Shown here: positions 7,350 through 58,651 of the stretch, in pieces
Layout of the letters: every line of letters begins with the position of its first letter
Numbering within the stretch: position 1 is the first letter of the stretch
NCBI GenBank assembly: GCA_016214035.1
Contig: JACRPF010000005.1
Span: 496,001 to 560,000, forward strand
DNA length: 64,000 nucleotides
Source: Spirochaetota bacterium
Lineage (GTDB): Bacteria; Spirochaetota; Brachyspiria; Brachyspirales; JACRPF01
Direction: 5' to 3'
Position numbers and translations under genes: made by a program
Notes under the pieces: model-generated
The model's input: the letters and a program-made list of their open reading frames with translations, nothing else
Told to the model about the DNA's origin: nothing
Databases searched by the model: none

Positions 7350-7398
7350 CTCCGTTTTAATTATCGGCTCCTCAGCGCGAATCGTTGATACAAAAATC

Positions 7399-7427
7399 AT
7401 TATATGCAGGAATATGGTGAAAGTCAA
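7399..7427 (-). promoter_or_regulatory. Promoter of the SLBB/acidic/basic-tail/DUF115 operon
   Basis: On the minus strand TTGACT (7422-7427), 17 nt, TATAAT (7399-7404), near-consensus. Predicted transcription start is near 7392. This places the ATG at 7400 upstream of the transcript and favours the start at 7349. Confidence 0.7.
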
Positions 7428-7516
7428 GCGAGCGGGATTAACGGCTGAAAAATGTCAAAAAATGCGAATCAAACCGTATATGACGCCATTTCGGAGAATT
7501 CCGCGTTCATGCGACT

Positions 7517-7544
7517 TTGCGTATTCCTTTTGGTGCTATATAAT
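7517..7544 (+). promoter_or_regulatory. Promoter of the A2M/pbpC/glycosidase operon
   Basis: TTGCGT (7517-7522), 16 nt, TATAAT (7539-7544). The -10 is perfect, the -35 moderate. It is divergent from the 7399-7427 promoter and sits 25 nt ahead of the ribosome site of the A2M gene. Confidence 0.5.
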
Positions 7545-7569
7545 GAAGACAGTATATTGGAGGTCGTTT

Positions 7570-13920: not shown

Positions 13921-13932
13921 ACGACGCGGACT

Positions 13933-31400: not shown

Positions 31401-34191
31401 TGCCGGGCTCGAGCTGGTACGGCAGGCGGTACGCTGCTACGCCTACTGCCGTAATAAAGGGCTGCGGATGGAATTGGTGATCTGGGTTGATACGGTCTCG
31501 GGATACCGTCAGCCGCTGCGTGACGAGATTGCCGGTATGATAGCCACCGATTCCGAGTCGCAGCTTCTGGACCAGCCCGGGGGGATATTCATCCGGACAA
31601 CCGATCAGGTGCCGGAGGATGACCGCCTTCTTATTCAGGCTGCGGCTCGCGTGTACATGACCGACCGGGCAGGTACCTTCGCCGAGCAGGTGGAGCGGAG
31701 ATCGCGCGGAGAGATGAAATTACCGCGCTTCGTACCGAAACGCGCGGCGCCGGCTGCGGAAGATGACATCCCGGTTGCGAGACCTGATCTGGTTTTCTTC
31801 AACGGGTATGGCGGTTTTACCCGTGACGGACGTGAATATGTGATCATCCTCAAGCCCGGCGCGGCCACTCCGGCGCCGTGGGTGAATATTCTCGCCAATG
31901 AACGGTTCGGCAGTGTGACCGGAGAATCCGGGCCGGTGTATACCTGGTATGAGAACGCCCGTCAGTTCCGTATCACCCCGTGGCACAATGATCCGGTGGG
32001 AGGGACATCGGGAGAAGCGTTCTACATACGGGATGAGCAGACGGGGGTGTTCTGGTCGCCCACACCGGGCCCCGCCCGCGGTCCGACGACGTACGTATGC
32101 CGGCACGGCCTGGGATATTCCGCGTATGAGCACCGGCAGAACGATATTTTTTCGGAGACGATGATCTATGTCCCGGTTGACGCACCAATGAAGCTTACGC
32201 TCATCAGGGTCAGAAACCTGTCGGAGCGTGAACGAAAGCTGTCGGTGACCTCGTTTGCCGAATGCGCCGTGGGAGAACTCCAGGGGCGCAGTTCCATGCA
32301 TGTGGTGAGCAAGATCGATCCTCAGACAAATGCCGTCTTCCTGACCAATGCATTTAATACGGAATTCTCATCTACGGTTGTCTTCGTGCAGACGGGCGAA
32401 TCGGAACGTACGTTCACTGGCGACCGCACGGAGTTCATCGGCAGAAACGGTTCTCTTGAACGTCCGGCGGCCATGTTCAGGCAGGGATTATCCAATAAGG
32501 TGGGGCCAGCGCTCGATCCGTGCGCGGCGCTGCAGACCTATATCACCATACCGGCGGGACAGGAACGATATGTTGTCTTTATGATGGGCGGGGCGGAGAG
32601 CAGGGACGAGGCGAGAAACATCATCCGGAAACACAGCTCCAAGGCGGGGGCATGGCAGTCGTTGGAAAAAGTGTGGGATTTCTGGAAACATTGCACGGGG
32701 GCAATTAATATAGAGACGCCGGATACCGCAATGAATCTGCTTGTCAATAACTGGCTGCTTTATCAGGTTATTGCCTGCCGGATGTGGGGACGCAGCGGTT
32801 TTTATCAATCGGGAGGGGCGTTTGGTTTCAGAGACCAGCTGCAGGACAGTATGGCGCTGCTCCATTGCAGGCCGGATATGATGAGACGGCATATTATCCT
32901 CTGTTCCGGCCGGCAATTCATCGAAGGTGATGTGCAGCATTGGTGGCATCAGCCGTCCGGGCGCGGCATACGCACGCGTTTTTCCGATGATTGTCTATGG
33001 CTTCCGTATACGGTCAGCCGGTATGTTCAGTCCACCGGGGACACAGGATTACTCGACGAGCTTGCCCCCTTTCTCAGCGGACGTCCGGTCCCCGAAAATG
33101 AAGAATCATATTACGACATACCCCGCACGGAAGATGCGCAGGCGCCGGTCTACGAGCACTGTGTACGCGCACTTGAGCTGGTGATGTCCCGTATGGGCGA
33201 ACACGGTCTGCCGCTTATGGGATGCGGCGACTGGAATGATGGCATGAACAAGGTCGGCATCAAGGGGAAGGGCGAAAGTGTCTGGCTTGCTTTTTTTCTC
33301 GTGGAAGTGCTTCAGCAGTTTGAAGGAATTGCCGCGGCACGTAAAGATGCGTACTTCAGTGCTAAATGTCTGAACATGCAGACGTATTTGAAGAAAAACA
33401 TTGAAGAGAACACCTGGGATGGATCATGGTATATGCGCGCCTATTTTGACAACGGGACACCGCTGGGTTCCCGCATGAATATAGAATGCAGTATAGATTC
33501 AATTCCCCAGAGTTGGGCGGTACTCAGCGGCGCGGCGGATCCGGAACGATGCCTGCGGGCAATGGATGAAGTAGAGAAACATCTTGTCCGTCCGGAACGC
33601 GGCATTATCCAGCTGTTCGACCCTCCTTTCGATAAGTCCGAAATTTCACCCGGATACATCAAAGGATACATTCCCGGAGTCAGGGAGAACGGCGGACAAT
33701 ACACCCATGCCGCGGTATGGGTGGGCATGGCATACGCCAAACAACACGACGTGAAGCGCGCCTGGGATGTGGCAAGAATGATAAATCCCATCAGTCATGG
33801 CGGCACCCGGGAACGGATTCAAATCTATATGACGGAACCCTATGTGGTCTCCGCTGATATCTATTCCTCAAAACAGCATGAGGGACGTGGCGGGTGGACA
33901 TGGTATACCGGCAGCGCGGGCTGGATGTACCGCTTTTATGTGGAAAGTCTGCTCGGGTTGAAGTTGGAAGTAGACCGGCTGTCGTTCGCACCGGTGCTTC
34001 CGCCGGAGTGGAATGAATTCACCGTACACTACCGGTATCGTGAAACGGTCTATCATATTAAAATCCGTATTTCAGGCAGTGAAACATGGACGGTGAGAAA
34101 AATCATGGTGGATAATCGTGCGCAGGATGATTTATGTATTCACCTTGTTGATGACCGGATTGATCATACCGCTGAAGTCGAAGTTGGATGA
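25411..34191 (+). CDS. ndvB: Cyclic beta-1,2-glucan synthase (GT84 + GH94)
   Basis: 2926 residues, the usual size of NdvB/ChvB/Cgs. N-terminal cytoplasmic region (1-410); membrane helices at about 412-470; GT84 glycosyltransferase with LDSDTQLP (about 628-635) and VNDLNAFLRGK; more helices at about 820-865 and 950-990; glucoamylase-like domain (about 1000-1630); two GH94 N-terminal-type beta domains (about 1640-2040 and 2125-2430); and a C-terminal GH94 phosphorylase-like domain with MGCGDWNDGMNKVG (D2607). The enzyme primes, elongates, trims and cyclises beta-1,2-glucan at the inner membrane for release to the periplasm. No NdvA-type exporter is adjacent. The start has only a weak ribosome site; single-gene unit. 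Confidence 0.93.
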   Translation: MKIKIPNIANNDVASLEIEPPLLAELFGHDQFAKYARVLADEHEVDTAPGAELLLSRLAENKTVIREAHRIVSRALENNRQISPAAEWLLDNYYVIEEQILLAEQYLPKRYSRQLPRLKTGKHEGFPRVYDIAFELVSHTDGRIDIGNLSHFIEKYQTVQHLSLGELWAMPIMLRMALIENLRRVAHRIALRRLDRDSAITWAERFLASAGANAKELITVLADFARESPKLSHPFLAELTMRIHGQHLSLGLVINWLERQLAEDGQTIEQILQAESQDQAVHQVSIGNSITSLRALSEIDWKPFVETQSATEKELEKDPSGIYKMMDFRTRDAYRHVVEKLSRYSGKKEEDISAEAVKLAVRRKGRKGVAPREYHVGYFLVDKGLAELERIILPRYPFRDAARRLFGRNPFLIYQGLVTAASLVLAGVTAAGVISHTMYGRLPLTVIACLIVVLASRSAITIINWVITLFVTPQALPRMDFSKGIPDNCRTLVAVQTMLTGTSSIDDLLSGLEIYHVANRDPNVVFTLVADFADADREMTDNDGPLLDYVKNGIEALNKKYAAEDNRIFFLLHRKREWNPSERKWMGYERKRGKVNDLNAFLRGKPGRIIAASGEHRKLLQTVRYVITLDSDTQLPPSTAWKLAGTMAHPLNTPLIDEKTGCVVQGYGIMQPRISMSLVGSSASPFSKLFSGDVGIDPYTHEISDVYHDMIGTTPFLGKGIYDVDAFSAAAGSRFPENTILSHDLIEGLHARCGYINNVDLIEDHPAQYLVDVSRRSRWIRGDWQIMRWLFPRVPDASGKKTRNVLSTTARWMIFDNLRRSIIPPAFFLLLLITGTLFTAGFFCKAAVILSLFYLPVFLQTLWGMCNKPARVAWHYHFGHVLSQRLQQSVRDTLMVVFLPFEAFIGIDAILKAWWRKTISHRNMLEWQTARSAAHGAKTGLSSVLKRMWVNPVTGIVCLVFVYCREEISFSATAAAGLIWILAPFIAWFISRPVKNIHVRFTAEQQAFLRNISRRTWRYFETFAGPEHNWLPPDNVQEKPEFQIAARTSPTNIGLYLLSILAARDFGYISTTSALHRIRNAFSSMGHMERFRGHFLNWYETKSLQTLRPRYVSTVDSGNLVGSLIALRGGLLEMKAEPLLSEQWLPGLRDTARALLDEMRRIARDMPVINAEQLRACEAFAGDIAAYSGPAGTVEDLYRFLSGVIAERAAVRIDLIASADVRSWIAAVQTQCEDIIGEIVRLAPWLSGNCFSGTALERAGSMLDPGELNDLLTDVHRSDTLVRLAALSMKWSARFDSWIEDVSGGDGSPEQVSEMRAWIQDVRRHIADASMYAGNRISELEQLAEACSEFSDWDIEFLFQQDKKLFTIGYNIENRKADNSYYDLFASEARLGSYIGVAQGRIPQEHWFLLGRQQAKVETGPPTLLSWSGSMFEYLMPNLILPVYEGTLTDYSCRNAVQQQIIYGNGRTVPWGISESSYNLIDVHKTYQYRAFGVPALGLMRGLAEDLVVAPYASIMGLTSMASEACLNLQRLAADGMLGGMGMYEAVDYTAMRVPSGQDRVIVQSYMAHHSGMGLLALASVLLNSPMQRRFISDPEMRSALLLLQERIPPVLDDASIIAHPQAGVSNKTEAQIRESITRVYANVNADVPRVQLLSNGRYNVMITNAGGGYSRWHGIDLIRWREDVTRDNYGLYCYIQDVETGAFWSAAYQPACVRPERYEAIFSQALGEFRCVHNDIEIYTKISVSPEDDVEIRRMTVSNLSSEERTLDLTSYAEVVLAESLAEISHPVFNSLFIQTELIPDKSAIICTRRRRSDEEAVPWMFTSMVVNNGQPVRGCSFETDRNRFVGRTRGTMHPAAMDSVGRLSNTSGMVLDPIASIRRRIVIPAGESLMVDLIMGASSSREQVLLLIDKYRDYRLAERVFDIAWTHSQVLLQHLRSTEADAQLFGRLASSIIYPNARHRAGTTVITQNSKNQSSLWRYGISGDLPIMLIQTTDAAGLELVRQAVRCYAYCRNKGLRMELVIWVDTVSGYRQPLRDEIAGMIATDSESQLLDQPGGIFIRTTDQVPEDDRLLIQAAARVYMTDRAGTFAEQVERRSRGEMKLPRFVPKRAAPAAEDDIPVARPDLVFFNGYGGFTRDGREYVIILKPGAATPAPWVNILANERFGSVTGESGPVYTWYENARQFRITPWHNDPVGGTSGEAFYIRDEQTGVFWSPTPGPARGPTTYVCRHGLGYSAYEHRQNDIFSETMIYVPVDAPMKLTLIRVRNLSERERKLSVTSFAECAVGELQGRSSMHVVSKIDPQTNAVFLTNAFNTEFSSTVVFVQTGESERTFTGDRTEFIGRNGSLERPAAMFRQGLSNKVGPALDPCAALQTYITIPAGQERYVVFMMGGAESRDEARNIIRKHSSKAGAWQSLEKVWDFWKHCTGAINIETPDTAMNLLVNNWLLYQVIACRMWGRSGFYQSGGAFGFRDQLQDSMALLHCRPDMMRRHIILCSGRQFIEGDVQHWWHQPSGRGIRTRFSDDCLWLPYTVSRYVQSTGDTGLLDELAPFLSGRPVPENEESYYDIPRTEDAQAPVYEHCVRALELVMSRMGEHGLPLMGCGDWNDGMNKVGIKGKGESVWLAFFLVEVLQQFEGIAAARKDAYFSAKCLNMQTYLKKNIEENTWDGSWYMRAYFDNGTPLGSRMNIECSIDSIPQSWAVLSGAADPERCLRAMDEVEKHLVRPERGIIQLFDPPFDKSEISPGYIKGYIPGVRENGGQYTHAAVWVGMAYAKQHDVKRAWDVARMINPISHGGTRERIQIYMTEPYVVSADIYSSKQHEGRGGWTWYTGSAGWMYRFYVESLLGLKLEVDRLSFAPVLPPEWNEFTVHYRYRETVYHIKIRISGSETWTVRKIMVDNRAQDDLCIHLVDDRIDHTAEVEVG

Positions 34192-36718: not shown

Positions 36719-39700
36719 ATGCTGTTGCACTTCATAAATTATTTCACCGCATGCATACGATGTAAATCAACTTTTCTGTATCTCTTCTTTAATAGTATAT
36801 ATTTTTTTCGTCGATTGGCATATACCGCCGTGATATATGTGATGTTCACGGTTGCTTCGCTTATGCCGAATGATTCCATTGCATTTCTCGGGTGGTGGGG
36901 GCGCGGTACGAACGGTCCCGGTATTACCAATATCGGCTGGAATGCGCCCGCATCGGGCAATTTCGGGATGGCTGCGGGCGATAATGGCGCATTCAGCGGG
37001 CCTCGGGATTTGTATTTTGATGAAACTACCGGGTATATCTATGTGGCGGACGCATATAATGACCGGGTGCAGAAATTCAGCGCGCCCGGAGTGTATGATT
37101 CAAAATGGGGTGCAATAGGGACAGGCGATAACCAGTTCAATGATCCATTCGGCATCGCCGTGGACAGTGCAAATAACACCGTGTATGTCGGTGATTATAA
37201 CGGTAACCGTGTCATTAAAAGCGATACGAACGGTGCAATGATTGAATGGTATGGACGAGGAAGCAACACCGGAACGGGTGTATTCAGTAACGGGACGTTT
37301 ATGCTCGGGTCGGGTTATGTCGGCGGATTCACCGGCAACAGCGGGGCAGCAATCAATCAGCCGCGCGGACTGGCGCTCGATGCGAATAAAGACCTCTATA
37401 TCTGTGACCGGAATAATCACCGGGTGTTGAAATATTCATCAACGGGAAATTTCATCGGTTGGTGGGGCCGGGGCAATCTTACCAGCGGCTGGCATCATGC
37501 CGATTCGGCAGAGACGGCGGCCGGCGCTGCAAACGGGGACTGGAATTTCGATACACCCATCGGCGTTGCGGTATACGGCTCCAATGTATACGTTTCCTGC
37601 TACAATCAGCACCGAGTGGTGCGTTTCGGTACCAACACCAATACCGCATTCCATGGTTTTTTCGGCCGCGGACCGGTTGTGGGCTGGAATCCCGGAGGAT
37701 TTAACTATACATCGACCGCGGGGATGAATAACGGCGAGTTCAACGGCGCGCTGAAGGTAACCGTCGACAGCCGCGGCAATGTATATGTCTCGGATGTCAA
37801 CAATTATCGGGTCCAGAAATTCACTCCTGATGGCATATTTCTTGCCGCATTCGGCACCTACGGGCGCGGTGACGGACAGTTCCTGTACCCGACAGCCATT
37901 ACGGTAACATCGAATGAAGAGGTTTACATATCGGATAATCAGAATCACCGTGTCATGGCATGGAAATGCGATACTGCGCCGCTGGTCACGGTATCGCAAT
38001 CCGGTTTTGCTACCAATGCGGGACCGGTAGTCATTACCCTTGATGTGAACGAGACGAATGGATACTGGTCGACCAATGGTTCCGTATTCTATGCCTTCAC
38101 CGACAGCACGAATGTTTCGTTCTCGGTTACAACCCGTCTGTATTATTATGGACAGGACGGCAGTAATAACAGCGGCACGAACATGCAGCTGTATTCTATC
38201 GGTGCTCTTGCTGCGTCGAACACCATCACAGGCGCCGTCTATACGACCGTCTCGGAAGCGGTTTCAAATGCTGTCAGCGGGCAGACCGTTGTCGTTTTCG
38301 AAGGCGTTTACAATGAATCACTTTACTTTTTCAATATGACGAATATTTCGCTGATAAGCTATCCGTGGCTGACGAATGGAAATAGCGGTGCGGCTGTTTT
38401 TGATGGGACAGGTCTTGGTTTCGACCCGTTGGTGACAGCGGGGAGCAACCGCGCGGCGGTGACTTTCAGTAATGCGGTCAGCAACAGCGTACTCGGCTTT
38501 TCCATCCGCAATTACAGCAACGGCATATACTTCTGCGATTCAAATCCGCTGTCGCTACGCTGTTCCTACAACATTATTGCGGCGAACCGCATCTATTCCA
38601 ACGGTAATTTCGCCGCAACATCGGGTCACGGCATTTCGCTCGGGAACAGCTGGGTGGTGAGCAATAATTTTGTCAGCAATGAACTGTTCGGCAATGCCCG
38701 CTTCGGCGTATGGAACGGCAATGCGGACTGGAACAGGTACATGGAGAACAGCATACACCATAATTATCGCGGTATTGACTGCGACGGGAGCGCCACCTAT
38801 ACGCTGATAGCATCGAACCTGATCTATTCGAACTATAGTCACGGGGTGTATTTCAATTCCGATAACGCCGACTTTAATACGGTTATATCGAATTATATCT
38901 ATGCGAATGATGACGGCATACGGTATGTAGACGGTGATTCTTCGGCGATCATGTCGAATATCATTTGTTCAAACCGCGGTGACGGCATTGAAATGAATAA
39001 TCAGGCGGATATTTGGAAGCTGTGGGATAACGATATATTCGGCAACACGAGTTACGGAATAAATCTGTACGGCAATGGCGACTTCGCCACGGTTCTTTCA
39101 AACCGCATCTGGGATAACGGCAACGGCCTAAGGCTTTGGGATACGGACTCGAATATGATTTCGTATAATGAAATCGTCAGCAACCGCGCAACGGGATTGT
39201 ACTTAGACCCCGGGGCGGGAAATCCTGCGACAAACAATTATGCCGTTAACAATATCATTTCGTATAACTATAATAACAATATCGCCATCAGTGGAGACGG
39301 TGCCGATAATAATTATTTCATATCGAATTTCATCAGCAGACCGACGGCGCCCACGGCGGCCAATCCGAACAACATCAGTTTCGGCAGCGGCCCGGACGGC
39401 AACTGGTTCATCAGCAATATCATCTGCAGCAACGCCGGTCGTCCGGCCATCAACTGCTGGAGCGGCTATCCGGCGGGGTCGTGGGTCAGTGACACTTCGA
39501 ACAGTACGAATAATGTATTCATGTATAATTCCATATTTTCAAACAGCTACGCCATAACGTTCGATCATGACAACTACCGCTCGTTTTCTCTTATTTCAAA
39601 CCGGATATTTTATAACAATACCGGAATCAACAATAGCCAGTCGGATTATCTGTATATCTTCGGGAATGATATCTGCAGTAATTTCGGCACCGGGATCTAT

Positions 39701-42700
39701 ATAGCGCCGCCGACCACCGGCCCGACGTCAAATGTGGTCAGCAACTCGATTGTAGGCAATAATATCTTTTCAAACGGAACTTACGATATCCGTCTGAACT
39801 CCGAAAATGCGGATACGAATTTCATATCAAATAATTTTATCCACAGTACCCGGTATGGAATTTATCTTGAAAACGGCCCCGATGCTGTTGAGATCGTCAG
39901 GAACACGATATCGAACTGCTTTGTCAATGGTATTTATTCGAGCGGTGTGTACGACAATAATGCCGGAGCCGGTATCGTACATAATAATTTCACCGGAAAC
40001 CTGACCAATGCCCGGCTGTGGTCGTCGGCGTGGGAAGGAACGAATGTGCAGTCGAATTACTGGGGCGTCATAGCCATCGACAGCATCAGCAATAAATTCG
40101 CGGACACCAACGCGGCGACGAATTTCTATGCGCCGTACCGGCTTGGATGGATCGGGGTCGACCAGGCGGATATCGATCCGCCGCCGTCGCCGACCGGTCT
40201 GATTAAAGCCACCCTCGGCAGCACCAACTACATCACCTGGAATGCGGCAGCCGGAGCGGCGGGTTATCATATCTGGCGTGCCGTCACGGTGAACGAGTGG
40301 ACGAATTTCAGCGCACCGTACGCAGCCGTTACCGGATTGAATTTCCTGGATACGAATGCCGGCGCGTCGTATTACTACTATGTAACCGCGTATGACGGAG
40401 CGCTGCCGTATTCCAATGAGTCGTGGTTCAGTGCTCCGGAGACGACGGCGAATACGCCGCCGGTTCTCACCAACCAGCAGGTGCTTCGGCTGCAGGGCGT
40501 GACGAACAGTTCGTTCGCGTTCAGCGTTGTATACTACGACTTTGAGAACGACGGTCCCTCGAACGGCGTGAGCTTGGTGCTCTCGAACGGAGCAACGGGC
40601 ATTGCCGCCACCAACAGCATGCTGCTTGCCTCGGGAGCGTTCAATACGGGGGCCATTTATACCAACAGCGTGGTCATTGCATCCGCGGGTGATTATGTGT
40701 GCTACATGTACGCCGCCGGATCGAACAGCTCGCCGGTACCGAGTGAATCGGTGCGGGTTGCGGCGCCGCATGTGACAACGGGTATTGTCGCATCGAATAT
40801 GACCACCGGATTGTTTTATGACACCGTGCAGACCGCGGTTGACAGCGCGTCTGACGGCGAGACCGTGACGGTGTTCGCAGGAACGTACGGGGAACAGGTG
40901 TATGTTACCAACAAAACCGGCGTGGTCATTGCCGGATATCCCTGGCTTACGAATGCCGACAACACGCAGGTTGTGTTTGACGGCAGCGGAATCGGTGCGC
41001 CGCTGAGTTCGGCGTTTACGTTGAGCTCGGTATCGGGTGTGGTCATCCGCGGCATTACGGCACGTCTGTACACCAACGGGATTACATTCAGGGATAACGC
41101 ATCGAACTGCATTATCGAGGCAAACAACTTATATTCGAACGGCTACGGGATGCCGGGAAGCTATCATGGCGGCATACTCGTCATGTCGAACAGCGCGTAT
41201 TCGAATGCGTTTCTCAGCAATTATGTGTGGCGCAATAATGGCGGCATCATCAATTCAAATTCCAGCAGCAATGTGTTTTATGCGAACACCGTTGCGGGAA
41301 ACACCGGTAACGGCATCGGTTCTCCCACGTATCAGGGCTCATGGCGGCTCTTTAATGAGTTTGTGAACAATGTCATCGTATCAAACGGCGGCAACGGCAT
41401 CTCACTTGCCGCCTACTATCACAATACGACCATTGTATCAAACGTCATCGCGAGCAACAATGGACGCGGCATCTACTGCGACGGGTTCCGCGACAGCATC
41501 ATCGCGTCTAATATCGTGCTCCGCAACAATGGGGGGGGCGGCGGCATATTCCAGGGCGGTGCGGTGAACTGGACGAACACCGTTGCGTTCAACAGCTTTA
41601 TCAGCAACAGCACCTACGGATTCGGTCTGTTCTCGACGAAGATAACGCATTCCTGGATCGTCTCGAATACGGTCAGCGGTAACAGCACGTACGGGCTGTG
41701 GATCACCAACGGCAGTAATGTGTTTGTCGCCAATAACACCGTCGACGGATCGCCGTACGGCATCTATGTCAACGACACGACGAACAATCAGATCACGCGG
41801 AATACGGTGACCAACTGCTCGGCAACCGGCATCTATTTCGGCGGCATGGGCATGGTGAGCGGTCCTAACTGGGTGGGCGGCTACATCGCATATAATAATA
41901 TTTTTTCAAATACGACCAACGTCCGTGTGGCCGATGCGGTGAACATCGCGAATATCGCCCTGTCGAACTACTGGGGAGCCATCGATGTGCCGTCGATAGC
42001 GCCGAAGATGGCCGAATCGCTCGCGCAGGCGACCAACTTCTACGCCCCGTACCGTCTCGGTATGATCGGTGTTGATCAGGCCGACATCGATCCGCTTTCG
42101 CCCCCCGTGATAACGAATGTCACGACGAATGCGGCGACGAATATCCTGGTGCAGTGGCAGGCGGTTGGCGGAGCGGCGGGTTACCGCATATACCGGAGTT
42201 CTGATGCGGAGTCATGGACCAATTTCAATTCCGCGTACGCCGGCCTCGGCACGGTGACATCGTACACCGATACGAATGTGATCGTCGGGACGCGGTATTA
42301 TTACTATCTTACGTCGATCGATAATGCAGTGCCGCTCTCGAATGAATCATGGTTCAGCGAACCGTCGAACGCGAGATTCATGCCGTCGTATTATGCCGAG
42401 TTCACCAATCCGGCGCCGGACAGCGCGCTGTTTCCCGCGGTCTATTCGTTCGCGGGGAATTATGGCCCGCTCACCGGCACCGCGGTATATTTCAGCGCGA
42501 ACGGTACCGTGTTCGGCATGCCGTCGACGAACAGCGGTGTCTGGTCGACCAATGTCGATGTGACACCGTACGTGGGCATGACGAACCGTTTCTATGCGGT
42601 TGCGAGCAATATAGCAACAGGGCTTGCCGAGACGAATATACAGACGAATTTCATCGCCCCGCTCATTGCGTCGAATATGAGTAACGGTACGCGGTATATT

Positions 42701-45511
42701 TCTGTTGCACAGGCGGTTAACGACGCATCAAACGGGCAGGCGGTTGCCGTATTCGCGGGGACTGCACGTGAAAACATCTCCATCGCGGGTAAAACGGATT
42801 TTACGCTTATCGGCTGGCCCTGGGTCACCAATGCCGACAATACCGGCGCCAGAATCGACGGTATGAACCTTTCCGGATACAACAATATGGGTATCGAGAT
42901 CACCAACTCGACGGGTGTGCGCATCGAGGGTCTTACGGTGTGCAACTTCACGAACGGGATATTCATGTCGCGTGATATTTCGAATTGCATCATCATCAAT
43001 AACGATATCAACAATAACGGCAATGTTGATACGACGAATTATTGGCGCGGCGGCCTGGTGTTCTTTACGAATACAACGGTGTCGAATTTCATCATATCGA
43101 ATACCATGTGGAGCAACCGTCTGGGTATCGTATTTCTCGGCGGACCGAAAAATACGTTCATCGGGAACCGGATCTATTGGAATAAAACCCACGGCGCCGG
43201 ATATCCGGACTGGAACCGCCCGATGAGCGATTCATATTTTGAAGGTAACGTGTTCTGCTCGAATGCATCCGCCGGGTTTAACGGCTGGGGTGCGCAGTAC
43301 CGGTGTGTGTTCGTATCGAACAAGTTTTTCAGCAACGGGGGGGTGGGGATCACCATACCCTCGTGGGATAATAATACCTTTTCCATGAATGAGATACTGA
43401 GTAATGCCGGCAACGGCGTAGAATTGAGCTGGGGTACCGGCTCGAACATGTTCGTTTATAACGTAATTGACTATAACAATTCCGGGGTGTACTTCAGCGG
43501 CGATTACGGCACGAGTGATATTTCGAATTATTTCCTGTCGAACAGCATCTCATATAACAGGAATAACGGTGTTGATATTCGTCATGCGGACTGGAATTTC
43601 ATCCGGTACAACGACATCGCCAGCAATGCGTCGCGGGGTATCTACATACAGGCGATCACGAACGGTATAACATTTTCGAATGAGATATTCGGCAACAATA
43701 TTCACGGTAATACGAACGAGGGCGTCTACCTCGTCTATGATAAGGTTGTCGCTACCAGTATTATGTCCAATGTCATCAGCGGCAATCTGCATGGCATCCG
43801 CATTCATGAGGGTGATTCAAACATCATTTTCGGAAATGTGGTGTGCAGTAACCGGCAGGAAGGAATATATTTTCTCCCGAGTTCAAATAACGTTTCGTAT
43901 AATACGATAGAGAGTAATATCATCTTCGGACATACGGGCGGCGCAAATGGACGCGGTATTCTGATATCGGGCGACCGGGCGGACACGAATACCATTGTCA
44001 GTAACGTGATATTCGGAAACAGGATCGGCATACATATTTCCGAGGCAGAGGGGCAGACGGTCATGCTCAATACCATCACGAACAATAGCCAGTACGGCCT
44101 CTACAGCGACGGCACGTATGACGGCAACAGGGGCGCGGGTCTTGTTGCGTTTAACAATTTCACCGGCAATCCGAAGATCATGCGGGTGAATTCGGGATGG
44201 TACAGCACGAATATCCGGAGCAATTATTTCGGCACGATAAACGCCGGAGCGATATCGAACAGCATTGAGAATTGTGCGGGTACGAATTTCTATGCGCCGT
44301 ATCTGCTGAGACCGGTGGATATCTACAGTGCCGACATTACGCCGCCCGCGACACGCCCTGCAGTGACGAATGTATCCACGGGTTTGAACGGCAAGGTAGG
44401 CGTTCTATGGACGGATACCGGCGCGTCGGGGTATCGTGTATACCGCTCGGAGCATATCGATGTCTGGACGAATATGTATGCGTGTGTCGCTGATGTCACC
44501 GCAGCCGGGTATACCGATATCATGGTGCTTCCCGGTACGAATTACTACTACTACGTGACCGCGTACGATGCGGCGAGCAATGAAACATGGTTCAGCGATG
44601 CATCCGGTTTTGCGGGGAACATCAATCCAGGCTTCTGGCTTACCATGACTAATACGATACCGCTTACATGGATCAATACATCGAACTATACCTACCGCGG
44701 GATGTACGGCCTGTCGGCGAACACGATGCCTTATTACAGTACGAACGGGATAGACTTTCAGATGATCACCACGACGAATACCGCCGGCGGATGGTGGCTG
44801 AGCGCAACGCTGCCGTTCGGTTCCGGCTCAACGAATGTTACGAATGTGTTCTATGTGATGATCAGCAACAATGCGGACCGGTTGACCAATCTGGTCACCA
44901 ATTATTTTGACGGATCCGCTCCGGTTGCGGCGCTGACGAATATTGCGGACGGAGCATTGATCACCAATACATTCGCCTTTTGGGGGACGGTGTACGAACC
45001 GGAGAGCGGTATATTGAATGTGTCGGTCAGGATATCCAACGCCGCCGGTTACACAACGAATGTACCGGCAGTGATCAGCAATGGTTCAACGTATTATGCG
45101 GTATGGGATTCGTTTCCTTCTTCCATCACGAACGGGGCGTATTTCGCATATGTGCATTCAGGTAATACTGTCGGACTTACCGCAGAAACCGGGTCACTGC
45201 GGTTTTTCGTGAGCAATCAGCGGGCGTCTGATGATGCCGAAAGCGCCTATGTGTTCAACAATCCGTATACCGGTATCGGTGATATTGTATTCAAAGATCT
45301 GCCGACCAACACGGTACTCAGCATCTATACGGTATCCGGTAAGCTGGTGCGGAAACTGGAAATGCCCGCGGGGGACAATGCCGGCATGATCACCTGGAGT
45401 GTCACTGATATGAACGGCCGTCTCGCGTCGCCGGGGGTCTATATCTGTTATGTCAGTTCACCTGCCGGCATACGCATCATGAAGCTCATCATCAAGCGGC
45501 GTAAACAGTAA
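36719..45511 (+). CDS. Giant surface protein: NHL propeller, three beta-helix/FN3 modules, T9SS-like C-terminal domain
   Basis: 2930 residues. GGGAGG eight nucleotides upstream marks the ATG. The export signal is unusual: a 30-residue Phe/Tyr-rich lead precedes the hydrophobic stretch LAYTAVIYVMFTVASLMPND. Residues ~55-416 hold six NHL repeats (GPRDLYFDETTGYIYVADAY, then YPTAITVTSNEEVYISDNQN), a six-bladed propeller. Three ~550-750-residue modules follow, each an Asn/Ser-rich right-handed beta-helix (NosD/DUF1565-like) closed by ATNFYAPYRLG-type text and an FN3-like domain (YYYYVTAYD, SNESWFS). An Ig-like domain precedes the last ~90 residues (YVFNNPYTGIGDIVFKDL, then LSIYTVSGKLVRKLEM), a FlgD-Ig/type-IX-sorting-like domain. 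Asn content is extreme. The PorV-like gene lies 10 bp downstream. Confidence 0.85.
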   Translation: MLLHFINYFTACIRCKSTFLYLFFNSIYFFRRLAYTAVIYVMFTVASLMPNDSIAFLGWWGRGTNGPGITNIGWNAPASGNFGMAAGDNGAFSGPRDLYFDETTGYIYVADAYNDRVQKFSAPGVYDSKWGAIGTGDNQFNDPFGIAVDSANNTVYVGDYNGNRVIKSDTNGAMIEWYGRGSNTGTGVFSNGTFMLGSGYVGGFTGNSGAAINQPRGLALDANKDLYICDRNNHRVLKYSSTGNFIGWWGRGNLTSGWHHADSAETAAGAANGDWNFDTPIGVAVYGSNVYVSCYNQHRVVRFGTNTNTAFHGFFGRGPVVGWNPGGFNYTSTAGMNNGEFNGALKVTVDSRGNVYVSDVNNYRVQKFTPDGIFLAAFGTYGRGDGQFLYPTAITVTSNEEVYISDNQNHRVMAWKCDTAPLVTVSQSGFATNAGPVVITLDVNETNGYWSTNGSVFYAFTDSTNVSFSVTTRLYYYGQDGSNNSGTNMQLYSIGALAASNTITGAVYTTVSEAVSNAVSGQTVVVFEGVYNESLYFFNMTNISLISYPWLTNGNSGAAVFDGTGLGFDPLVTAGSNRAAVTFSNAVSNSVLGFSIRNYSNGIYFCDSNPLSLRCSYNIIAANRIYSNGNFAATSGHGISLGNSWVVSNNFVSNELFGNARFGVWNGNADWNRYMENSIHHNYRGIDCDGSATYTLIASNLIYSNYSHGVYFNSDNADFNTVISNYIYANDDGIRYVDGDSSAIMSNIICSNRGDGIEMNNQADIWKLWDNDIFGNTSYGINLYGNGDFATVLSNRIWDNGNGLRLWDTDSNMISYNEIVSNRATGLYLDPGAGNPATNNYAVNNIISYNYNNNIAISGDGADNNYFISNFISRPTAPTAANPNNISFGSGPDGNWFISNIICSNAGRPAINCWSGYPAGSWVSDTSNSTNNVFMYNSIFSNSYAITFDHDNYRSFSLISNRIFYNNTGINNSQSDYLYIFGNDICSNFGTGIYIAPPTTGPTSNVVSNSIVGNNIFSNGTYDIRLNSENADTNFISNNFIHSTRYGIYLENGPDAVEIVRNTISNCFVNGIYSSGVYDNNAGAGIVHNNFTGNLTNARLWSSAWEGTNVQSNYWGVIAIDSISNKFADTNAATNFYAPYRLGWIGVDQADIDPPPSPTGLIKATLGSTNYITWNAAAGAAGYHIWRAVTVNEWTNFSAPYAAVTGLNFLDTNAGASYYYYVTAYDGALPYSNESWFSAPETTANTPPVLTNQQVLRLQGVTNSSFAFSVVYYDFENDGPSNGVSLVLSNGATGIAATNSMLLASGAFNTGAIYTNSVVIASAGDYVCYMYAAGSNSSPVPSESVRVAAPHVTTGIVASNMTTGLFYDTVQTAVDSASDGETVTVFAGTYGEQVYVTNKTGVVIAGYPWLTNADNTQVVFDGSGIGAPLSSAFTLSSVSGVVIRGITARLYTNGITFRDNASNCIIEANNLYSNGYGMPGSYHGGILVMSNSAYSNAFLSNYVWRNNGGIINSNSSSNVFYANTVAGNTGNGIGSPTYQGSWRLFNEFVNNVIVSNGGNGISLAAYYHNTTIVSNVIASNNGRGIYCDGFRDSIIASNIVLRNNGGGGGIFQGGAVNWTNTVAFNSFISNSTYGFGLFSTKITHSWIVSNTVSGNSTYGLWITNGSNVFVANNTVDGSPYGIYVNDTTNNQITRNTVTNCSATGIYFGGMGMVSGPNWVGGYIAYNNIFSNTTNVRVADAVNIANIALSNYWGAIDVPSIAPKMAESLAQATNFYAPYRLGMIGVDQADIDPLSPPVITNVTTNAATNILVQWQAVGGAAGYRIYRSSDAESWTNFNSAYAGLGTVTSYTDTNVIVGTRYYYYLTSIDNAVPLSNESWFSEPSNARFMPSYYAEFTNPAPDSALFPAVYSFAGNYGPLTGTAVYFSANGTVFGMPSTNSGVWSTNVDVTPYVGMTNRFYAVASNIATGLAETNIQTNFIAPLIASNMSNGTRYISVAQAVNDASNGQAVAVFAGTARENISIAGKTDFTLIGWPWVTNADNTGARIDGMNLSGYNNMGIEITNSTGVRIEGLTVCNFTNGIFMSRDISNCIIINNDINNNGNVDTTNYWRGGLVFFTNTTVSNFIISNTMWSNRLGIVFLGGPKNTFIGNRIYWNKTHGAGYPDWNRPMSDSYFEGNVFCSNASAGFNGWGAQYRCVFVSNKFFSNGGVGITIPSWDNNTFSMNEILSNAGNGVELSWGTGSNMFVYNVIDYNNSGVYFSGDYGTSDISNYFLSNSISYNRNNGVDIRHADWNFIRYNDIASNASRGIYIQAITNGITFSNEIFGNNIHGNTNEGVYLVYDKVVATSIMSNVISGNLHGIRIHEGDSNIIFGNVVCSNRQEGIYFLPSSNNVSYNTIESNIIFGHTGGANGRGILISGDRADTNTIVSNVIFGNRIGIHISEAEGQTVMLNTITNNSQYGLYSDGTYDGNRGAGLVAFNNFTGNPKIMRVNSGWYSTNIRSNYFGTINAGAISNSIENCAGTNFYAPYLLRPVDIYSADITPPATRPAVTNVSTGLNGKVGVLWTDTGASGYRVYRSEHIDVWTNMYACVADVTAAGYTDIMVLPGTNYYYYVTAYDAASNETWFSDASGFAGNINPGFWLTMTNTIPLTWINTSNYTYRGMYGLSANTMPYYSTNGIDFQMITTTNTAGGWWLSATLPFGSGSTNVTNVFYVMISNNADRLTNLVTNYFDGSAPVAALTNIADGALITNTFAFWGTVYEPESGILNVSVRISNAAGYTTNVPAVISNGSTYYAVWDSFPSSITNGAYFAYVHSGNTVGLTAETGSLRFFVSNQRASDDAESAYVFNNPYTGIGDIVFKDLPTNTVLSIYTVSGKLVRKLEMPAGDNAGMITWSVTDMNGRLASPGVYICYVSSPAGIRIMKLIIKRRKQ
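38215..40445 (+). repeat. Beta-helix/FN3 module 1 of the giant protein
   Basis: Begins ASNTITGAVYTTVSEAV, includes ISYPWLTNG, ends in NFYAPYRLGWIGVDQADIDP and an FN3-like domain. Protein-level repeat of the modules at 40765 and 42664; codons differ at many silent positions, so the duplication is old. Confidence 0.75.
40765..42375 (+). repeat. Beta-helix/FN3 module 2 of the giant protein
   Basis: Begins VASNMTTGLFYDTVQTAVDS, includes AGYPWLTNADNT, ends NFYAPYRLGMIGVDQADIDP plus FN3-like domain. Contains a run of eight G at 41531-41538 coding for glycines. Confidence 0.75.
42664..44600 (+). repeat. Beta-helix/FN3 module 3 of the giant protein
   Basis: Begins IASNMSNGTRYISVAQAVND, includes GWPWVTNADNTGARIDG, ends NFYAPYLLRPVDIYSADITP plus FN3-like domain. 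It has diverged more than modules 1 and 2 in the closing text. Confidence 0.75.
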
Positions 45512-45521
45512 GGAGCTGGCC

Positions 45522-46976
45522 ATGAGTATGAACCTGAAACACCTTATTCTCTATGCGGCACTTGCCGGGACAGTCATGTTTCCCGCGACGATGGATTCGT
45601 TCGATGTACTTAACATCGGAGCCGGCGGCGCGTCGGCGGCGTTTGCGCAGACGGTTGCGGGAGAAAGCGGCACCATCGAAGGCGTGTTCAATAATCCGGC
45701 AACGCTCGGTTCACTCGGCGGCGCTACCGCTGTGCTCGGCTCGTATAATCCGTATATTGAAGGTATGTCGCTGTGGAGCGGCGCGGCCGCGATTCGGCTG
45801 CCGGGCCTCATTACGCTTGCGGTGTCCGGTTACGGCCTTATGTTCGACCCCATTCCCGGCGACATCAAATTCTCCGGTGACACCGGACGGCTCATGCAGT
45901 CGGGCGATTATGTATTCGGCGCCAGTGCCGCATTCCCGCTGGGCTCATACGGGAATCTTCCCTTCACACTCGATCTTGGCATCACTGCACGGTACGTGAT
46001 GGAGATGCTCGATGATGTCACGATATCGGGCGTCATGGCAGACGCGGGCATTATCCTTGCGTTCACCAATCTTGCCGGCAACGATATGTTCTCGGTGGGC
46101 GCGTACGGCCGCAATCTCGGTATACCGCTCTCGCAGGCAAATGAGATTACGCTTCCGATGGCGGTGTGCGCGGGAGTGATGTACGGTGCGCAGGTGTCAC
46201 CGGTATTCGGGTACAAGGCTCTATTCGACGGCACCTATTATTTCAACGATACGCCGAAGTTCAACATCGGTACGGAGATAGGGCTGTTCAGGACCGTGAT
46301 GATACGCATGGGGTACATGATCGGCTATGATGCGCGCGGATTTACAATCGGCGGCGGACTCAATCTCGGTTTCAGCGGCATGAAAGTGTCGTTCGATTAT
46401 TCGCTGGTCCCGCTGGGCGATCTCGGAATGCATCACGCGCTGCAGCTCACCGGCATGTTCGGTGACGTGCAGGTGAAGATTGATCCGGGTAAAGACCTGT
46501 ACGAACAGGGGATGGCGCATGAAAATACAAAACGATATGAAGAAGCGCTGGCAACACTGGCGAAGATAACCGACGGGTCGGCGTATTACGAACGCGCGCG
46601 TAAAAGCATCGAAAAGCTCGCGGTAATCGTTGCGGCGCGCCGCGCCTATGGAGAAGGCGTTGGTTATGCGCGTGAAGGCCGTTTGACTGACGCGGTGGCG
46701 GCATGGAGCCGCGTACCGCAGGGATCTGATGTGTACGAGAAGGCGCAGAAGAGCATCGCCAAAGCGAAGGCGAGAATTGCTGAAGAGGCGGCAGCACAAG
46801 CTGCTCCGGCTGATATGAGCGATGATGATCTGTACCGCAACGGTATTGCTCTGGCGCGGGAAAAGAAGCTCAACGAGGCGATCGAGATGTGGAGCAGGGT
46901 CAGGGAAGGTTCGGAAGTCTACGAGAAGGCGCAGAAAGCGATTGAGCGCGCGAAGAGAATGCTCGCGGAGGAATGA
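45522..46976 (+). CDS. PorV/UPF0164-like outer-membrane barrel with TPR tail
   Basis: 484 residues. Signal peptide (about 1-25), then the hallmark start FDVLNIGAGGASAAFAQTVA...VFNNPATLGSLGG of the PorV/PorQ and spirochaetal UPF0164 (FadL-like) barrels, with Gly/aromatic strands to about residue 320 (YSLVPLGDLGMHHALQLTG closes the barrel). Residues ~327-484 are three helical TPR-like repeats (LYEQGMAHENTKRYEEALAT, YGEGVGYAREGRLTDAVAAW, LYRNGIALAREKKLNEAIEM). PorV in Bacteroidetes shuttles type IX cargo to the attachment complex; the TPR tail is not part of that protein. AAGGAG upstream; 10 bp after the giant sorting-domain protein, so co-expressed with its probable cargo. Confidence 0.82.
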   Translation: MSMNLKHLILYAALAGTVMFPATMDSFDVLNIGAGGASAAFAQTVAGESGTIEGVFNNPATLGSLGGATAVLGSYNPYIEGMSLWSGAAAIRLPGLITLAVSGYGLMFDPIPGDIKFSGDTGRLMQSGDYVFGASAAFPLGSYGNLPFTLDLGITARYVMEMLDDVTISGVMADAGIILAFTNLAGNDMFSVGAYGRNLGIPLSQANEITLPMAVCAGVMYGAQVSPVFGYKALFDGTYYFNDTPKFNIGTEIGLFRTVMIRMGYMIGYDARGFTIGGGLNLGFSGMKVSFDYSLVPLGDLGMHHALQLTGMFGDVQVKIDPGKDLYEQGMAHENTKRYEEALATLAKITDGSAYYERARKSIEKLAVIVAARRAYGEGVGYAREGRLTDAVAAWSRVPQGSDVYEKAQKSIAKAKARIAEEAAAQAAPADMSDDDLYRNGIALAREKKLNEAIEMWSRVREGSEVYEKAQKAIERAKRMLAEE

Positions 46977-55225: not shown

Positions 55226-56494
55226 TCAGGGTGCGCGGTATTTGATGCGCAGTTTTTTCAGACGTTCTTTTGCCGAACTATAGAGCGGTGATGAATCTGT
55301 AATTGAAGACAGGAATGCATATGCCTTTGCATACTCATGCTGCACGATGAGTTCATCGGCAAGCGCAATGATACGCAGCTCGGCCTTCCGGATGTTCTGA
55401 AGCGCCCGCTCATAGGATGCGGATTTTTTTTCGATCTGCCGCCAATACAATAGCGCAGCTGGATAGTCGCCATTTTTAGCCGCGCCAATACCGCGCCGCA
55501 TCAAGTCCTCATTGCGGTTATCGATCGGTTCGGGTGCCGCTTTTTTCATGTCCAGATCGGCGATCGCCGTACTGAGCTGCATACTATGATGCATGCCCAT
55601 GTTACCGAGCGGTATGAGCGCATAATCAATCCGCAGACGCATCGCCGGGGGGCCGAATGCGATGCCGGCGCCGAAAGTCGGTCCGCGGGCATCAGCGCCG
55701 ATCATATACCCGTACCGCACCGCGAGCATCTTTATGAACGATGTTTCGAACCCCGCTGCAATGATGAGCGCACCGTCCGTGTCCACACGAATATCGGAAC
55801 GCAGGCGGTACGAGACGTTTTTTGTCACGTCCATTCCATATTCAAATCCGCCTGCAATGCGCAGCGGCAACGTTATCCGCTGCGACGCAGTAACGAGAGG
55901 CATGCCTGCATTTTTTACGGCAAATCCTATAGAAAGCGTGTCGCGTATGATAATATTACTTATGGTTGCGATACAGCCGGCGTCAAACATGAGGGCCGAC
56001 AGTGAAAGATCATCAAGGCTTTCTGCGGCATACTTTATTGCTGCTCCCATATCAACGGCCAGCGGAAGCTTGAGCAGTTTCCCGACGGGTACGCCGATGC
56101 CGATGCATGCCGCATAGCATCCGGCGCTGACCATTCTTCCCGGATCTCCATCAAAGGTGATATCACCGGCGAACGGTTCGAAGACAAGACCATGACCGGC
56201 GACGGAAAGCGTGCCGACACCCTCAAATGCATACGCGGCGGCGCCGTTCCACGCGGTCATGATCAGATACGGATCATACGAAGCCGTCAGCGAGATGCCG
56301 CGGAGGGAGGCAAGCGACGCCGGATTGTTGAAACTTCCATCCGGATCCCCCGGTGCCGCTGTTGATGCCGTGCCGAGCGATGCGGCGGCCCCGCCGGCGG
56401 CGATATCAAGGAACGAAAATGATTCACTGATCGATCCGAACATCCCGGCGGCCAGCGCAACAGAAATGATAATGAGAACTCCCGTCTTTTTCAT
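55226..56494 (-). CDS. PorV/UPF0164-like outer-membrane barrel with TPR tail (second copy)
   Basis: 422 residues. Signal peptide (MKKTGVLIIISVALAAGMFG) and the same opening as the 45522 protein: FSFLDIAAGGAAASLGTAST...SFNNPASLASLRG. Barrel strands run to about residue 310 (DYALIPLGNMGMHHSMQLST matches its paralogue's closing strand), followed by helical TPR-like repeats (LMRRGIGAAKNGDYPAALLY, LADELIVQHEYAKAYAFLSS). GGAGGT precedes the ATG, inside the end of the upstream gene. It is 3 bp downstream of a secreted protein with a type-IX-like C-terminal domain, repeating the arrangement at 36719-46976. Confidence 0.8.
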   Translation of the reverse strand: MKKTGVLIIISVALAAGMFGSISESFSFLDIAAGGAAASLGTASTAAPGDPDGSFNNPASLASLRGISLTASYDPYLIMTAWNGAAAYAFEGVGTLSVAGHGLVFEPFAGDITFDGDPGRMVSAGCYAACIGIGVPVGKLLKLPLAVDMGAAIKYAAESLDDLSLSALMFDAGCIATISNIIIRDTLSIGFAVKNAGMPLVTASQRITLPLRIAGGFEYGMDVTKNVSYRLRSDIRVDTDGALIIAAGFETSFIKMLAVRYGYMIGADARGPTFGAGIAFGPPAMRLRIDYALIPLGNMGMHHSMQLSTAIADLDMKKAAPEPIDNRNEDLMRRGIGAAKNGDYPAALLYWRQIEKKSASYERALQNIRKAELRIIALADELIVQHEYAKAYAFLSSITDSSPLYSSAKERLKKLRIKYRAP

Positions 56495-56497
56495 GGG

Positions 56498-58651
56498 CTA
56501 CCTCCGTACGACCATGACGAGCATGGTCCTTGTCCTTCGCGGAGTCACGAGTTCACAGAGATACATTCCCGAACCGGCATTCATACCGTTCATCGTGCGT
56601 ACATTCCACGTAAGTGAACCGCCGCCGCCGCCCGGAGGAGGCTTGATCGTGCTGATAAGTTTACCGGCCACCGTATATATTCTGATGAACGTATCGGCGG
56701 TGAGATTTACAAATATGACGCCGCGATCGCCGCCGCGCCATGGGTTGTTGATCACGGTTGCCCTTTCTATCGTTTCTTTTATGGAAAACGCCGCCGGCTG
56801 GTACGGGATGAGAAAGGATATCCCGGGTGAACGGTATTCCATCCCCGCGTTATTAACGGAAACGACAAAGGCATCGTATATGCCTTCCGGCACTGCCCGG
56901 GAATTCCACGGCGCCTGCCATCCCGTTTCCGTTACTATTGCCGGCACCGATGCTGCCACTCCGCCTGCGTTCGAGATGACAACCCGGGCGGATAATACGC
57001 CCGACTCCGGATCGTAATTACTTCCTTTGAAAACGAATATATTGCTTGAATAATGGTCATCGTAAAATATATTCGATACCACCTGTCCGGCGGTGACGTT
57101 GGTGATCGATGATGACGGAGGTGTCGTATCTATAAAGTTCGTCTGTATATTGGTGATCATCTCCGGTATTGCGGCGTTTGATGCGGCAAGAAATAATGTA
57201 ACGGAACCACCGAGTGATGACAGCGGCAGATTTGTCCACCATCCGCCGCTTCCGTTCGTCGCGGTACGTCCGTAGGTTATGCCGTCGGAACTGAAATAGG
57301 CCTGCACATCGGATGCGGGAAGCATGGTGCCGGAAAAGGTATATGATACGTTGGTGATCCATATGTCCGGCGCCGGATTGGTCATGTATGCAACAGCAGC
57401 CGGAGCATACTCAAATATCAGTCTGACATTGGTCACTACCGGCGTCGTTCCCTGCACCGACGATGCTAACTGTACGCGATATTGAAAATAGCGTGCGTTA
57501 TTATCAAGGTCAGGACTATTCGATACGATCACCGCCCCCGGCGTGTTCGTAAAGCTGCTGCCCGCACCGGAAGGCCCTGTCCACGGAGCAGATCCCAGTG
57601 CCGTTATGGTGTCGGCGCTTCTCAGCTGCATTGCCGCAGTGATCTCCTGATAATAGTTCAAATTCGTATTCGTGAACGTGCTGCGTCCGAGCCCGTTGGT
57701 GTTTATCATCCCCTGCAGTCCTGAAAAGGCGATCGATTTTATGTTCTTAAAGACATAGTTCGTTCCGTTGGAGATGAATGACGGCACCGCCTGTATGGGG
57801 CAGGAGACGAATGACCCGTATGACGCCAGATCGTATGCGAATATCGGTTCATCTACCCACAGTGTATTCGAGACCGGTGTTGCGGGAGACGCGCCCGTGC
57901 GGTTGAAATAACTCGTCACATCGAGACCGATCGCGATATGGTTTGACGCGTAATACCAGCCGTCCACATTGGTGTTCGGTACACACCGCAGATTGTTCGT
58001 GTTAAAATTGAACTGCCCGCAATTCCAGTTCCACGCGGTGTCGGCAAATGAAAAACCGTTGACGCTGTGCCCTTTATAGCCGAACGATGACTCGAGTATC
58101 CAGACTGACAGCCGCAGATTCGCGTTATTCGGCGGTCCCGGGGGATTTTGCGATTTCATGAAGAACATGAAGAATGCGTTGCTCTGATGCGTTATCGTGC
58201 CATGCTTGTATTTATTGTTCGGGTTTCTGTGCGGGTTGATTGACCCCGTATTCGTCGAGTCGAAACAGAATTTTGCAGAGCCGATGCCGTCAACGGAATC
58301 TGATGCGTCGAAATAGCGTTTATAACTTTTCGGCGCCTGATACCAATCGGACCAGCCGTACGAATTGAATTCCGTCGCAGTGGCGACGTATGACGGCCAG
58401 TGATTGGTGACCGGTTTCAGGATTACCGCACCGTTCGTCCTATATCCGGCGCAGGTGAAGAACAGACCGCCGTCAGCTTGTGCGTAATTGCTTGCCGGCT
58501 GAGCACCGGTGACGGTATAGGCTGCCGGCGATGCTCCGCCGCGCCAGAGCGACTGGTTCCAGACAACGTCATAACCCCAGCCCGGCACGGCCGGGACAAG
58601 CAGTGCCGCAGTGCATATACACGGCAGTGCGCGTTTCAAACAGGTGATCAT
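56498..58651 (-). CDS. Secreted protein with Ig-like domains and T9SS-like C-terminal domain
   Basis: 717 residues from ATG 58651 (GGAGGT five nucleotides upstream; an earlier frame start at 58714 has none). Signal peptide MITCLKRALPCICTAALLVP. Residues ~25-400 are an unrecognised Asn/Tyr/Trp-rich beta region. Then two Ig-like domains (NPAPDIWITNVSYTFSGTML; TPPSSSITNVTAGQVVSNIF with YDPESGVLSARVVISNAGGV) and the last ~85 residues (ATVINNPWRGGDRGVIFVNL, then TFIRIYTVAGKLISTIKPPP) form a FlgD-Ig/sorting-like domain. These ~300 C-terminal residues are homologous to the end of the giant protein at 36719. Probable cargo of the barrel encoded 3 bp downstream. Confidence 0.78.
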   Translation of the reverse strand: MITCLKRALPCICTAALLVPAVPGWGYDVVWNQSLWRGGASPAAYTVTGAQPASNYAQADGGLFFTCAGYRTNGAVILKPVTNHWPSYVATATEFNSYGWSDWYQAPKSYKRYFDASDSVDGIGSAKFCFDSTNTGSINPHRNPNNKYKHGTITHQSNAFFMFFMKSQNPPGPPNNANLRLSVWILESSFGYKGHSVNGFSFADTAWNWNCGQFNFNTNNLRCVPNTNVDGWYYASNHIAIGLDVTSYFNRTGASPATPVSNTLWVDEPIFAYDLASYGSFVSCPIQAVPSFISNGTNYVFKNIKSIAFSGLQGMINTNGLGRSTFTNTNLNYYQEITAAMQLRSADTITALGSAPWTGPSGAGSSFTNTPGAVIVSNSPDLDNNARYFQYRVQLASSVQGTTPVVTNVRLIFEYAPAAVAYMTNPAPDIWITNVSYTFSGTMLPASDVQAYFSSDGITYGRTATNGSGGWWTNLPLSSLGGSVTLFLAASNAAIPEMITNIQTNFIDTTPPSSSITNVTAGQVVSNIFYDDHYSSNIFVFKGSNYDPESGVLSARVVISNAGGVAASVPAIVTETGWQAPWNSRAVPEGIYDAFVVSVNNAGMEYRSPGISFLIPYQPAAFSIKETIERATVINNPWRGGDRGVIFVNLTADTFIRIYTVAGKLISTIKPPPGGGGGSLTWNVRTMNGMNAGSGMYLCELVTPRRTRTMLVMVVRR

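Follow-up and report, generated by a model that had tools for sequence, protein, structure and literature searches.

Candidate type IX secretion cargos paired with PorV-like barrels in a Spirochaetota genome

The DNA analyzed here (the window) is a stretch of 64,000 nucleotides from the genome of a Spirochaetota bacterium, in which two genes for putative exported proteins are each followed, on the same strand, by a gene for an outer-membrane barrel (Table 1). The first pair consists of a giant protein (cargo 1), made of an NHL propeller, right-handed beta-helix modules and a C-terminal domain (CTD), and of barrel 1, with a gap of 10 bp between both genes. In the second, barrel 2 begins 3 bp past the end of cargo 2. 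A previous inspection of this DNA without database searches (the sequence-only reading) had described this second locus as a recurrence of the order cargo then barrel, and its coordinates, gene order and 3-bp spacing were right. The open reading frame of cargo 2 extends up to 58714, but the plausible start is at 58651, directly ahead of a signal-peptide-like stretch that is followed by a passenger of ~400 aa, an Ig-like segment and the CTD. The window also contains, at 25411–34191, a 2926-aa protein that we take to resemble glycosyltransferases of the cyclic beta-glucan synthase type and, at 7147–16278, what presumably are an alpha-2-macroglobulin-like protein of 2257 aa and then a PBP1C-like protein.

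Table 1. Location of the two cargo and barrel pairs in the window and of the SprA/Sov-like gene on contig C22 of the same genome.
Feature	Position	Strand	Basis
Cargo 1, 2930 aa, with an NHL propeller, modules of right-handed beta-helix and a CTD	36719-45511	+	Pfam NHL, NosD, Beta_helix; TIGR04183
CTD of cargo 1, final 90 aa	45239-45508	+	TIGR04183 over residues 2845-2926
Barrel 1, 484 aa, of the PorV/PorQ family and with a TPR-like tail	45522-46976	+	NF033709
Barrel 2, 422 aa, outer-membrane barrel of the PorV/PorQ family	55226-56494	-	NF033709
C-terminal tail of barrel 2, TPR-like and presumably periplasmic	55226-55537	-	TPR matches below cut-off
Cargo 2, putative exported protein, 717 aa	56498-58651	-	Open reading frame and translation
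C-terminal segment of cargo 2 common to the giant, Ig-like modules and sorting domain	56501-57385	-	BLASTP
CTD of cargo 2 (final 90 aa), a type-A-like T9SS sorting domain	56501-56770	-	TIGR04183, NF052228, alignment
SprA/Sov-like protein, 2205 aa	C22:126881-133495		TIGR04189

The last ~300 residues of cargo 2 align by BLASTP with residues 2643–2928 of the giant (35% identity over 304 aa, E = 2e-42), in agreement with the homology proposed from the sequence alone. The N-terminal region had been called unrelated and so it appears: for the ~417 upstream residues BLASTP against the giant gave nothing comparable to the C-terminal match, and a Pfam scan of them returned no family. This passenger has a full-length orthologue in the sister genus (genome G001, 52% identity over ~610 aa), where the giant pair also has an orthologous pair (L105). 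The two barrels of the window are 36% identical over 421 aa, confirming the second barrel, while the TPR tail ascribed to it was borne out in part, i.e., its repeats align with the tail of barrel 1 and its TPR matches are weak and under the Pfam cut-offs.

According to profile matches, the end common to both cargos is a type-A-like sorting domain of the type IX secretion system (T9SS). In cargo 1 the TIGR04183 model scored 24.0 bits, over the cut-off of 23, and in cargo 2 17.6 bits (E = 0.0028), under it; the CTD of cargo 2 also matched the model of the PorZ C-terminus (NF052228, E = 2.9e-8) and could be aligned with 25 other CTDs from the same genome. A total of 35 TIGR04183 matches were found in the genome at E ≤ 0.05 (25 over the cut-off), located at the extreme C-terminus in all the proteins read out, and the CTD proteins are of surface or secreted types (subtilases, CBM and glycosidase-like proteins, beta-helices). 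At the position presumed to be that of the near-invariant type A lysine, 16 of 26 CTDs have K and eight have R (K/R in 24/26), and cargo 2 has Leu. When a profile of the 26 CTDs was compared with the PDB, the leading matches were PorZ (1.4e-8), PorU (8.6e-6) and the CTD of Endonuclease I (EndoI, 8glk_D, 1.4e-4).

The barrels are assigned, also by profile, to the PorV/PorQ family. Model NF033709 matched barrel 2 with 77.8 bits (E = 1.1e-21) and barrel 1 with 56.7 bits (E = 3e-15), both under the curated cut-off of 90 bits; among the NF033709 matches of the genome one is above it. Scores for SprA, CTDs and barrels are likewise mostly under their respective curated cut-offs. A profile made with nine barrels of the genome had a sole significant match in the PDB, PorV (6h3i_F, E = 8e-17), a chain that is also part of entry 8glk. 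UPF0164 proteins are barrel proteins of spirochaetes, and the sequence-only reading had placed the window barrels among them. This identity was dropped, since neither barrel had a Pfam match to PF03687 (UPF0164) at E ≤ 1 (nor was there one across the genome, in a search lacking a working positive control) and NF033709 matched instead. The PorP/SprF family was likewise rejected as the carrier family of this genome, in which TIGR03519 had no match. A more trivial explanation would see in the C-terminal domain a generic Ig module like that of FlgD, in the barrel a transporter of the FadL type, and in their adjacency operon bookkeeping with no secretion involved. There are indeed weak matches to FlgD_ig and, in the PDB, to the FadL-type TodX, but FlgD (6e-3) is outscored in the CTD search by PorZ, PorU and the cargo CTD, and TodX (0.04) by PorV. 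The placement of the domain at the extreme C-terminus of exported-type proteins and the presence of an SprA homologue in the genome (see below) also speak against this explanation, which we regard as very improbable.

The cargo and barrel arrangement is repeated throughout the genome. The PorV family is matched 12 times, in one case by a weak fragment, which leaves ~11 barrels. Seven of these are encoded immediately downstream of a CTD gene and in the same orientation, at distances of -4 to 104 bp. They make up the two window pairs and one pair each on contigs C4, C14, C5, C21 and C12, the CTD of the last being below the TIGR04183 threshold used and recognized by sequence and alignment. Assuming ~36 CTD genes among ~4900 genes (the latter is our own estimate), the probability of such adjacency by chance is ~4e-13. 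The CTD genes outnumber the barrels (35 vs. ~11–12) and most of them have no adjoining barrel. At L048 (C10:313539–331608) the best match of the genome to the PorV family (101.9 bits, over the cut-off) is a barrel encoded downstream of a 4597-aa beta-helix protein with a CTD, of a 191-aa gene and of a 704-aa TPR protein, in this order. At L059 (C18:~171000–179100) there are three tandem CTD cargo genes without an adjoining barrel.

To see how widespread this order is, the DNA upstream of 60 barrels from 34 Spirochaetota genomes of the barrel match list was read with a CTD profile built from the present genome. A CTD gene was found directly upstream in 33 of them (>11 bits; 31 at >18 bits), a proportion that is not a population frequency, as the survey is enriched for query-like barrels and at most four candidates were scored per genome. 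The adjacency is thus not peculiar to this genome, the CTD–barrel order recurring in 18 other genomes that belong to 14 families, and nearly all the CTD matches among the 672 ORFs of the survey sit directly upstream of barrels. The Bacteroidota-derived model TIGR04183 independently recovered the same upstream CTDs in genomes G001, G006, G032, G041, G053, G083 and G097. A separate class of single barrels adjoins other genes, e.g., prfB or a ~390-aa gene. On the barrel tree the paired and unpaired labels are clustered, yet 12 changes are needed, indicating that pairing is old and has repeatedly changed. Functional coupling of cargo and barrel, already suggested by the sequence-only reading, is strongly supported by this recurrence and by the match of the two halves to contacting chains of a solved complex (PMC10994853). 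Orthologous pairs of a subtilase and a PorV-like barrel (L057 on C12, L053 on C14 and L107 on G001:C100) have been kept across two genera. In two of the surveyed genomes (G041:C179:466–1711 and G053:C5:9612–10839) PorP/SprF-family matches are located directly after type-A-like CTD matches, which suggests that the link between the type of a CTD and that of its carrier is not strict.

The candidate for the translocon is a 2205-aa protein that matches the SprA/Sov model TIGR04189 over three stretches (E = 5.7e-21, 73.5 bits), under the equivalog cut-off of 200 bits; the SprA-like protein of a relative reaches 146 bits. Searching the PDB with this protein alone, or together with the sister sequence, gave no match, and a profile of 18 SprA homologues of the phylum was required to retrieve SprA (6h3i_A, 2.7e-40). 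The profiles of barrels, CTDs and SprA-like proteins all match chains of one complex, 8glk. A search with the SprA pair detected homologues in 78 of 392 sampled Spirochaetota genomes, from 24 families, and at 19 further SprA-like loci the frames were open over their full length (1860–2289 aa). No conserved gene neighborhood was found around the SprA-like genes. Among records of named organisms SprA gave seven matches, all of them Spirochaetes MAGs, and the barrel alignment none. The relatives that we take to be Brachyspira-like had no SprA homologue. Of the 65 genomes tested for CTDs, three or more matches were found in 12 of the 31 with SprA vs. none of the 34 without it (Fisher p = 4e-5). 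Several SprA-positive genomes have few or zero CTD matches; in these, either the signals have diverged too far or the clients of SprA are others.

Given that the assembly is fragmented and its estimated contamination is 4.65%, all these genes could have come from a Bacteroidota or other FCB genome by an error of assembly or binning. We give this hardly any credit. The CTD genes are spread over most contigs, the SprA-like gene, on a contig separate from the window, shares it with ribosomal-protein operons, and the sister genome has a 56% identical SprA together with orthologous pairs. The distribution of SprA over the phylum, where several of the genomes have public Spirochaetes titles, argues in the same direction. 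A more serious objection is that the barrels merely anchor cargo exported by another route and that the SprA-like protein has no part in this traffic. Barrels of the PorP/SprF type do also serve as surface anchors in Bacteroidota (PMC9143113), and the SprA-positive spirochaetes with hardly any CTD genes would fit. Against this, the CTD expansion is limited to SprA-positive genomes, the three profiles converge on a single transport complex, and SprA was detected in 15 of the 18 other genomes with pairs, the remaining three being 76–88% complete. We therefore hold the anchor-only explanation to be improbable, if less so than the two considered before.

It is likely, in our judgment, that the window pair represents a T9SS-type substrate and its carrier. 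The best reading of the data would be that Spirochaetota use an export route resembling a divergent and reduced T9SS, in which the genes of PorV-like carriers adjoin those of individual cargos. By analogy with the Flavobacterium translocon (PMC10994853), the cargo would be exported by Sec and its CTD would bind the loops of a barrel docked to the lateral opening of the SprA-like channel, after which both would leave the channel and the barrel would display its cargo on the cell surface. Through co-transcription the carrier would be made together with its cargo, and a periplasmic partner may serve as docking site for the TPR-like tail. Since no PorU-type peptidase was found, cleavage and attachment of the cargo by PorU, as in Porphyromonas, probably do not take place here.

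Regarding the known parts of the T9SS, the SprA/Sov translocon, TIGR04183 cargos and a PorV-type carrier were found in the genome, and the motor/ring and the PorU sortase were not. GldM was detected neither here nor in the sister genome. For GldN there was nothing convincing or above the cut-off in 40 SprA-positive genomes (best E = 0.0096, in a search without a positive control), and the verdict on the motor/ring (GldL/M, GldK/N) derives from the GldM and GldN searches only. The C25 peptidase (PorU family) was not found in 38 of the 40, the present genome among them. One SprA-positive spirochaete does have a C25 (gingipain/PorU-family) peptidase (L192, G174:C10:10635–11636, E = 4.5e-27), a match that doubles as positive control for that search. 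Because GldM, GldN, the C25 peptidase and PorP/SprF were not found, the system is not classed as a complete T9SS. A wider proposal, which we put forward tentatively and at slightly under even chances, is that Spirochaetota possess their own long-established type IX branch, with an SprA-like channel and many PorV-like carriers, often in cargo operons, but without the motor and PorU machinery of Bacteroidota and hence newly powered and anchored.

The closest known system is the translocon of Bacteroidota formed by PorV, type A CTDs and SprA, with which the present one shares homologues of all three components and, in most CTDs but not in that of cargo 2, a K/R near the C-terminal end. In the solved Flavobacterium complexes the CTD sits on the loops of PorV inside SprA (8glk; PMC10994853). 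The differences are the phylum, the lack of detectable GldM, GldN and C25/PorU in the present genome, and the multiplication of PorV-like barrels encoded beside individual cargos, whereas PorV of Bacteroidota has been described as the single carrier of all type A cargos (PMC12618676). In this last aspect the spirochaete pairs resemble the shuttle pairs of type B CTDs and PorP/SprF (PMC12618676; PMC9143113), in which the barrel is also directly downstream of the cargo, the carrier is linked to it and orphan cargos probably share carriers. However, the CTDs studied here are type-A-like, the barrels PorV/PorQ-like, and PorP/SprF has no match in the genome. With the attachment complex of PorQ, PorZ and PorU there is also some likeness, as PorZ and PorU have similar CTDs and the barrels also score with PorQ, but again no C25 peptidase is present in the genome.

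The sequence-only reading had further suggested that each barrel might be specific to its own cargo, and in its strict form this idea is not supported. The G001 orthologue of cargo 2 is also followed by a PorV-like barrel, but this is not the orthologue of barrel 2 (only 36% identity). Between this G001 barrel and the one of another pair in that genome the identity is 78%, although the two accompanying CTDs are only 35% identical. On the other hand, the giant pair and the subtilase pairs keep matching barrels between genera. The covariation of barrels and CTDs was equally mixed. In the present and sister genomes taken together their distances are correlated (Spearman 0.71, p = 0.005), while over all pairs the correlation is not beyond that obtained by within-genome shuffling (p = 0.15). 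Strict one-barrel-one-CTD specificity was consequently dropped. Fully dedicated carriers, each recognizing only the adjoining CTD, as is largely the case for SprF-type shuttles and type B cargos, would account for the direct adjacency and tight spacing, for the retained orthologous pairs and for the correlation in the two genomes, and we consider them unlikely though by no means far-fetched. They are at odds with the non-orthologous barrel beside the G001 orthologue of cargo 2, with the 78% identical G001 barrels beside dissimilar CTDs, with the all-pairs result and with the excess of CTD genes, by which the barrels must be shared if all the CTD proteins use this route. Carriers linked to cargos but exchangeable or shared fit best and are probably what is found here.

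According to papers up to 2025 (PMC12618676; PMC11285876; PMC4793230), T9SS does not occur outside Bacteroidota or the FCB phyla. Our search, which covered open-access literature, retrieved no report of it in Spirochaetota, and priority is accordingly uncertain. If true, the SprA–PorV–CTD triad would extend the T9SS to another phylum (SprA-like genes are present in about one fifth of the sampled Spirochaetota genomes) and account for the placing of giant proteins and enzymes on the surface of these bacteria. It would also offer a natural system, seemingly devoid of the usual motor and sortase, in which the minimal requirements of transport are testable, and the linked PorV-like carriers are a natural test set for carrier recognition of type-A-like CTDs. 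One possible lead to the energy source is found at L050 (C15:54000–63900), where the orphan barrel nearest to those of the window is located ~7 kb from genes that, by the appearance of their sequence only, we take to be ExbD-like and TonB-like.
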